Source: Akkermansia sp. (GTDB taxonomy: Bacteria; Verrucomicrobiota; Verrucomicrobiia; Verrucomicrobiales; Akkermansiaceae). From it: DNA of 64,000 nt. This document shows positions 59,288 to 60,430 of this stretch, in pieces (positions within the stretch are counted from its first letter, which is position 1; each line of letters starts with the position of its first letter). The position numbers and the translations under genes were made by a program. The stretch covers positions 1 to 64,000 of the forward strand of contig JAFYUT010000027.1 of the NCBI GenBank assembly GCA_017549485.1. Direction: 5' to 3'. Below the pieces are notes generated by a model. It worked only from the letters and a program-made list of their open reading frames with translations, made no database searches and was not told the DNA's origin.

Positions 59288-60430
59288 ATGAAAGCTATTC
59301 TTGCACTCGAAGACGGAACGATATTTGAAGGCAGCTCCATCGGGGCGACCGGCACAGCAACTGGCGAAGTATGCTTTAACACCGCCGTAGCCGGCTACCA
59401 AGAGCTTATTACGGATCCCGCCTGCCGCGGTTTGATTCCGGTTATGACCTATCCTCTCATCGGTAACTACGGTGTTTGTGAGATGGACAACGAAAGCGCA
59501 CGCCCTCAGGCAAATGCTCTCATCGTTGCGGAGCTTGCCCGCCTGCACAGCAATTGGAACTCCCAAGAGGACATGGGCAGCTGGATGGCCCGCCATGGCA
59601 TGGTGGGCTTGGCCGGTGTAGATTGCCGCGCCATTGCCACGCACATTCGCGACAACGGCTCCATGCGTGGCTGCGTCACCACTGAACTGAGCGCCGAAGA
59701 AGCGGTTGCCGCCGCCAAAGCCGCCCCCGCCCTTGAAGGCGCAGATTTGGTCAGCACCGTAACAACCGCAGCCCCCTACCTTTGGGAGGGCGAGTCACGC
59801 GCTTGGAAATTGCCCAACAAGACTGCCGGCGACATGACCAACTACTGCGAGCTGCCCGCCGCTACCGGCAAAATGGTGGTATATGATTTCGGCGTAACCC
59901 GCAGCGTGCTTGCCACCCTGCGCCGCCATGGTTTTGAATGCACCGTAGTACCCGCCGGCACCAAGGCCGCAGAGGTACTGGCCATGCAACCCGATGCCGT
60001 CTACCTTTCCGGCGGCCCCGGCGATGCCTCCGTCCTCAGCGCCGTAAGCACCGAGATTGCAGAACTGGCAACCAAGCTTCCCGTCTTCGGCCACGGCATG
60101 GGCCACATGCTGGTAGCCCAGGCTTTCGGGGGCAAGATTACCAAGCTTCCGTTCGGCCACCACGGTGCCAACCAGCCCGTGAAAGATGAGCGCATCGGCC
60201 ACGTGTTGATTACCACACAAAATGAAAGCTTCACGGTGGTGGCAGACAGCCTGCCCGCCGAGCTGGAGGTGGTACAAACCAACATGAACGACAACACCGT
60301 TGCAGCCCTCAAGCACAAGAGCCTGCCCATCTTTACCGTACAATATCAGCCCGCCGACATTGCCGGGCCCAAAGAGTACGACTCCTATTTCACCGAAATC
60401 ACCAAGATGATTCAGGCCGCCAAGGCTTAA
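59288..60430 (+). CDS. carA: Carbamoyl-phosphate synthase small subunit with a degenerate glutaminase triad
   Basis: CarA normally hydrolyses glutamine and passes ammonia to CarB. The 380-residue product has the N-terminal CPSase small-chain domain ([33 protein letters not shown]-like [19 protein letters not shown]) and a C-terminal class I amidotransferase fold ([40 protein letters not shown]). The catalytic residues are gone: the nucleophile elbow GICLGHQ of E. coli is GHGMGHM here (Gly270 in place of Cys), and HPEA is QPAD (Gln354, Ala356 for His and Glu). It is therefore predicted to lack glutaminase activity. purA follows 31 nt downstream; carB is not in the window. Confidence 0.93.

Follow-up and report, generated by a model that had tools for sequence, protein, structure and literature searches.

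The question raised by this locus is how carbamoyl phosphate is made in an organism whose carbamoyl-phosphate synthetase (CPS) small subunit, CarA, has no glutaminase catalytic triad. The window (the whole stretch of DNA analysed, 64,000 nucleotides of an Akkermansia sp. contig) carries such a gene, carA1, in an open frame with an ATG start and zero internal stops. An earlier note, made from the sequence alone, had read the triad as lost and had proposed that carbamoyl phosphate is made from ammonia, with CarA kept as a non-hydrolytic subunit. The features of the locus are collected in Table 1; its downstream neighbour, purA, also adjoins the intact carA of another genome of the sample (G020, locus L015).

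Table 1. Coordinates of carA1, its altered codons and the neighbouring gene in the window.
Feature	Position	Strand	Basis
carA (CarA1), degenerate CPS small subunit, 380 aa + stop	59288..60430	+	ORF, profile matches, alignment
Codon Ala45, equivalent of E. coli Ser47 (glutamine pocket), Ser to Ala	59420..59422	+	Alignment; coordinates from ORF start
Codon Gly270, equivalent of nucleophile Cys269	60095..60097	+	Alignment to E. coli CarA
Codon Gln354, equivalent of catalytic His353	60347..60349	+	Alignment to E. coli CarA
Codon Ala356, equivalent of catalytic Glu355	60353..60355	+	Alignment to E. coli CarA
purA (adenylosuccinate synthase), downstream neighbour of carA1	60462..61736	+	Window ORF

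The window protein scored 362 bits against TIGR01368, ‘glutamine-hydrolyzing CPS small subunit’ (curated cut-off 307), and lay above the Pfam cut-offs for CPSase_sm_chain (PF00988, 150 against 27) and GATase (PF00117, 113 against 23). Alignment with E. coli CarA bore out the residue readings of the earlier note: FGICLGHQ is replaced by FGHGMGHM (Cys269 to Gly270) and GHPEA by YQPAD (His353 to Gln354, Glu355 to Ala356), while SGGPGD and FGHHGAN are retained. The Cys-His-Glu triad is absent and reads G-Q-A. Further changes in the pocket are S47A, K202T, N240G, Q273M, H312E and G313S (E. coli numbering), at positions which we take, from the E. coli CarA structure, to belong to the glutamine pocket (Ser47, Gln273, Gly313 and others). 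Judged by sequence, the gene is CarA by descent and is without the defining catalytic feature of a glutamine-hydrolysing small subunit. Cys269 and His353 of E. coli CarA are essential for glutamine hydrolysis (PMC6245113).

The spread of the degenerate triad was followed in 76 Akkermansia species genomes. CarA was typed in 75 of these (G108 gave zero CarA matches): 37 genomes are degenerate, 37 are intact (C-H-E) and one (G100) is intact-type but in two frames. Cys269 is replaced by Gly in 34 degenerate CarAs and by Ser in 3; His353 is kept in 3 and Glu355 in 10, and the complete triad in none. All 44 CarAs examined from lineages outside Akkermansia are C-H-E. The comparison at positions 269, 353 and 355, which the earlier note had suggested, therefore divides the genus itself into 37 intact and 37 degenerate members. 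Sequencing or assembly error was ruled out, since the loss recurs in 37 species genomes; the earlier note's view that the intact frame is not such an error was upheld on the same ground.

A CarA tree built with the triad columns masked placed all degenerate members of the genus in one clade (SH-aLRT 94). A long-branch artefact in this tree is countered by the tree of a different gene, native PurF, in which the same single clade was obtained with one change (support 93). These trees point to a single origin of triad degeneration in Akkermansia, in one clade. The degenerate branch is made up of gut Akkermansia whose hosts are mostly herbivores such as cattle, sheep and goats; its named metagenome-assembled genomes (MAGs) were recovered for the most part from the guts of ruminants and horses (goat, sheep, cattle, buffalo, yak, water deer, horse), with some others besides. 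Intact CarA occurs, among other members, in rabbit-type (‘Lapin’), chicken-type and horse MAGs and in A. glycaniphila.

Two CarAs stand apart from this pattern. G059, from another family of the order, has a CarA with the triad G-I-S and, at a different place in its genome, an intact one as well (L108, L109); this is an independent, convergent degeneration. The split carA of G100, a single-contig A. muciniphila-like genome, lies in two open frames of 252 and 196 aa (G100:C1:812080-813172; L235, L236) with an intact-type triad, and is a frameshift or an assembly error.

Values of dN/dS between degenerate CarA pairs were 0.06-0.29 (most about 0.1, with dS up to about 1.2, GATase domain included), and those between intact pairs within the genus 0.02-0.14 (about 0.06). 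The somewhat faster change of the degenerate proteins is what might be seen if CarA1 were a decaying gene under relaxed selection and without function. This explanation is very improbable: frames are open in 37 species at dN/dS far below 1, and 39 of the 63 N-terminal-domain columns that are invariant in intact CarAs are kept at more than 90% in degenerate ones. A pseudogene reading was thus ruled out by the open frames and by dN/dS of about 0.1; CarA1 is under purifying selection and still used.

The distribution of this constraint differs between the two types. Among intact pairs, the half of the protein that changes more slowly is generally the GATase domain, whereas in degenerate pairs both halves are about equal, as expected if the glutaminase constraint is gone and the constraint on fold or interface is kept. 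The fraction of intact-invariant residues kept in degenerate CarAs is 0.82 in the N-terminal domain, 0.52 around position 269 and 0.47 around 353-355. The fold of CarA1 is predicted to be intact: an AlphaFold model of the window protein had a pLDDT of 88.8 and a pTM of 0.90, and its best PDB match was E. coli CarA (TM 0.90-0.91), followed by human CPS1 (TM 0.82-0.83).

Continued purifying selection on the GATase domain, in which Gly241, Gly243, Gly271 and Asn311 are invariant or nearly so, suggests a kept fold or pocket function. It could accordingly be asked whether CarA1 is fed ammonia by another glutaminase acting in trans, or whether the pocket has a new ligand or partner and serves regulation. 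We consider this quite unlikely. A candidate partner gene was not seen beside carA1 in the window, and the pocket residues diverge freely between sub-clades (His353 is replaced by Q, I, L, T, D, S or V), unlike those of a newly conserved binding site.

The large subunit was found in the window's genome (G000; 2.26 Mb, 87.6% complete) as a single full-length gene (G000:C39, NF003671 1655 bits). All ATP-grasp and catalytic residues checked in this protein, CarB1, are intact. In this genome carA and carB lie on different contigs, each as a gene of its own, and not as a fusion of the CPS I type. G000, like nearly all of the 76 genomes, has two transcarbamylase genes, inferred to be PyrB and ArgF; carbamoyl phosphate is thus needed. 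The A. muciniphila-like genome G052 (L208:2527-5730) has an additional CarB paralogue distinct from the first, as do G015 (L210) and G113 (L213); this paralogue carries R265Q and P360A (E. coli numbering), with ATP-grasp residues otherwise intact.

Loss of a glutaminase was found in a second enzyme of the same clade. Native PurF-like proteins of most intact species start MSDPLHHECGVAAIRLL or a close variant. In 31 of the 36 degenerate-CarA genomes tested, G000 included, the start is MSAAIRLL, and a 9-codon in-frame deletion removes the catalytic N-terminal Cys. The same 31 proteins have Leu in place of the Arg of GHxRYG, which binds glutamine in E. coli PurF, and an altered GN oxyanion loop; their PRPP loop, VAIDDSIVRGTT, is identical in 31 of 31. 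A misplaced start hiding the Cys was rejected, as frames read from the upstream stop contain no HECG motif; purF of G000 has just 7 codons between this stop and the Met. A wrongly placed start is a known error in archaeal purF (PMC3261824). The Cys-less proteins score below the NCBIfam purF equivalog cut-off, so that ‘PurF’ is here a homology-based name, and for most of the clade no other PurF-like gene was matched by the PurF query taken from the mobile island described below. The Cys is kept in five degenerate-CarA genomes (G040, G001, G003, G030 and G109). As these form the sister branch in the PurF tree, the CarA site was lost first and the PurF site second, in one event each. E. coli PurF without its Cys has no glutamine activity but keeps its ammonia activity (PMC3261824).

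Other nitrogen genes were compared between the two groups. Glutamate synthase (GOGAT) is missing from 27 of 37 degenerate genomes and present in 36 of 38 intact ones; the native enzyme is lost across the degenerate clade except in the early-branching G040. PyrG, GuaA and HisH of G000 keep the Cys and the His-x-Glu, and its type-III glutamine synthetase (GSIII) agrees with the consensus at 259 of 259 near-invariant columns. A general loss of glutamine metabolism was ruled out by these genes: with glutamine synthetase and three other glutamine amidotransferases intact, these cells still produce and consume glutamine. Within the set of amidotransferases covered here (CarA, PurF, PyrG, GuaA and HisH), the glutaminase loss is confined to CarA and PurF.

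Native DapL and DapF (LL-DAP aminotransferase and DAP epimerase) are absent from G000, G001, G002, G104 and most of the degenerate clade, with G040 again the exception; where present in that clade they lie on the island (L211:7308-9396 and L246:6455-8624). G113, with intact CarA1 and intact PurF catalytic residues, is without glutamate synthase and DapF, so losses of GOGAT and DapF occur outside the degenerate clade too.

The explanation that we favour, and hold to be likely, is that CarA1 is a pseudo-glutaminase scaffold and that CarB1 makes carbamoyl phosphate from free ammonia, as a step in a wider shift from glutamine to ammonia. From the residue losses, selection, phylogeny and gene content observed, we infer that glutamine hydrolysis was lost in CarA1 with the CarA fold retained, that CarA1 still associates with CarB1 in a structural and perhaps allosteric role, and that ammonia is the substrate actually used. 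CarB1, with two intact ATP-grasp centres, would then convert bicarbonate, ATP and free ammonia to carbamoyl phosphate for PyrB and ArgF. The CarA triad would have been lost first, in the common ancestor of the 37 sampled species; native glutamate synthase would have gone in all species but the early-branching G040, and the N-terminal Cys of PurF by a single in-frame deletion in the sub-clade containing G000. Pyrimidines, arginine and purines are probably built in this clade with free ammonia as the direct nitrogen source, and high gut ammonia, to which the earlier note saw a plausible adaptation, may have made the switch affordable.

Against this reading, no CarB change that lowers the need for ammonia was identified; the clade-specific CarB substitutions are few and partly clustered near positions 265-296, R265K being that of the group to which the window belongs. 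The conserved glutamine synthetase and the three intact amidotransferases, by which glutamine is kept in use, also weigh against it. Ammonia can serve as substrate for E. coli CPS, but at very high concentration (PMC6245113), so the clade must have either much ammonia or an adapted CarB. Engineered CPS variants with a blocked or perforated glutamine-ammonia tunnel are still active with external ammonia (PMC4655335). What the earlier note had proposed is strengthened by the constraint on CarA, by the intact CarB active sites and by the fact that PurF of this clade lost its glutaminase too, and is qualified by a second CarA-CarB pair in 11 relatives.

This second, intact CarA (CarA2, C-H-E) was found in 11 of 37 degenerate genomes and in 0 of 37 intact ones (Fisher p = 4e-4, uncorrected for relatedness), and it is clustered with an intact carB. 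The cluster order in G101 is gltB - GSIII - purF2 - carA2 - nadE - carB2 - dapF - dapL. Between species, CarA2 copies share 87-99% identity where the corresponding CarA1 share 51-92% (the CarA2 of G040 is diverged, 65-66%), and because CarA2 identity exceeds that of CarA1 the island has probably moved between species. In G042 the island edge lies at L252:7571-7572, and the flank is 98% identical to contig G002:C57 of a near-sister genome, which was assembled across this point and runs on without the island. For G101 and G037, too, the match stops at this edge, so the sites differ. Contamination is an improbable source of carA2: an Akkermansia-type DapL, 82% identical to those of congeners, is found on the contigs that carry it, and the 98% match of the G042 and G002 flanks and the recurrence of the cluster in 11 genomes also oppose it.

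Two further features were noted around these contigs. A dispersed repeat of about 140-170 bases (L252:1829-1998) recurs genus-wide, very often at contig ends, and is a mobile or repeated element that breaks assemblies. Slightly past the junction at which G042 has the island, G002:C57 encodes an 854-aa protein (L276:224-2785) which we take to resemble a DUF262/GmrSD-type defence gene; the junction of G002 and G042 is suggested to be a variable spot.

CarA2 allows another account, in which the intact copy on the island serves CarB2 or both CarBs, redundancy freed CarA1, which was kept for a regulatory or structural role, and an unseen CarA2 was later lost or is missing from the assembly. The restriction of the carA2-carB cluster to degenerate genomes agrees with this, and the diverged CarA2 of the early-branching G040 makes acquisition before degeneration possible. 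The contigs of G023, G034 and G007 carry only parts of the island and break inside it, so the absence of carA2 from any single MAG, G000 included, is insecure. The earlier note had named an intact second CarA beside CarB as the observation that would tell against it; such a pair is present in the 11 related degenerate genomes, and a second intact CarA was searched for and not found in G000 at its 87.6% completeness. We nevertheless consider the redundancy account unlikely. Neither carA2 nor GltB of any kind is present in 14 degenerate genomes that are at least 90% complete, G001 and G002 (both 99%) among them, and the G002 locus that matches the G042 island border continues without an island. 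CarA1 is equally constrained in carriers of carA2 (G037/G101 dN/dS 0.07), and the glutaminase was lost in PurF as well. In some species the island is possibly a later rescue with glutamine-dependent copies.

We have somewhat better than even confidence in a broader proposal. The nitrogen economy of the clade would have been rebuilt, with free ammonia the direct donor for carbamoyl phosphate and for the first purine step, CarA and PurF becoming pseudo-glutaminases in an ordered series, GOGAT lost, and a mobile ‘glutamine island’ later restoring copies in some species.

The nearest known system is vertebrate mitochondrial CPS1, in which an inactive glutaminase-like domain is retained, the nucleophile Cys is replaced (Ser294 in human) and free ammonia is used (PMC4655335). 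On the features of its sequence, the window CarA probably works like CPS I. The statement of the earlier note that CPS1 lost the Cys alone did not hold, since frog CPS1 keeps the triad yet cannot use glutamine (PMC4655335). CPS1 is a single fusion protein of about 1500 residues that N-acetylglutamate activates and that serves urea synthesis. In Akkermansia CarA and CarB are separate subunits in an anabolic pathway, and two or all three residues of the triad are gone from most degenerate species. Engineered CPS variants, among them E. coli CarA C269S (PDB 1c30), are laboratory mutants with the other triad residues retained, and not a natural lineage. Crenarchaeal PurF' is likewise a natural loss of the PurF glutaminase nucleophile (PMC3261824), but an intact PurF is found beside it there, unlike the Cys-less protein of most of the Akkermansia clade. 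CPS III of Alcolapia fish is a convergent shift of CPS from glutamine to ammonia (PMC7657897); unlike CarA1 it keeps the triad, with one glutamine-binding residue changed. A search of the open-access literature returned no report that CarA or PurF is in such a state in Akkermansia, nor of any bacterial CarA that naturally lacks the nucleophile, which is weak evidence of novelty in both cases.

If the proposed explanation is true, this would be, as far as the open-access literature shows, the first natural bacterial CarAB working on ammonia alone. A natural bacterial CPS of the ammonia type, convergent with vertebrate CPS1, would break the rule, stated in a review, of glutamine as the physiological donor. 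It would also offer a compact system of two subunits in which to follow the conversion of a glutaminase into a scaffold and the adaptation of CarB to free ammonia. Because CarA and PurF have both lost the site while GuaA, PyrG and HisH have kept it, one can ask by experiment which amidotransferases are able to dispense with their glutaminase and which are not. The paired loss may also link the identity of Akkermansia species to the nitrogen status of the host.
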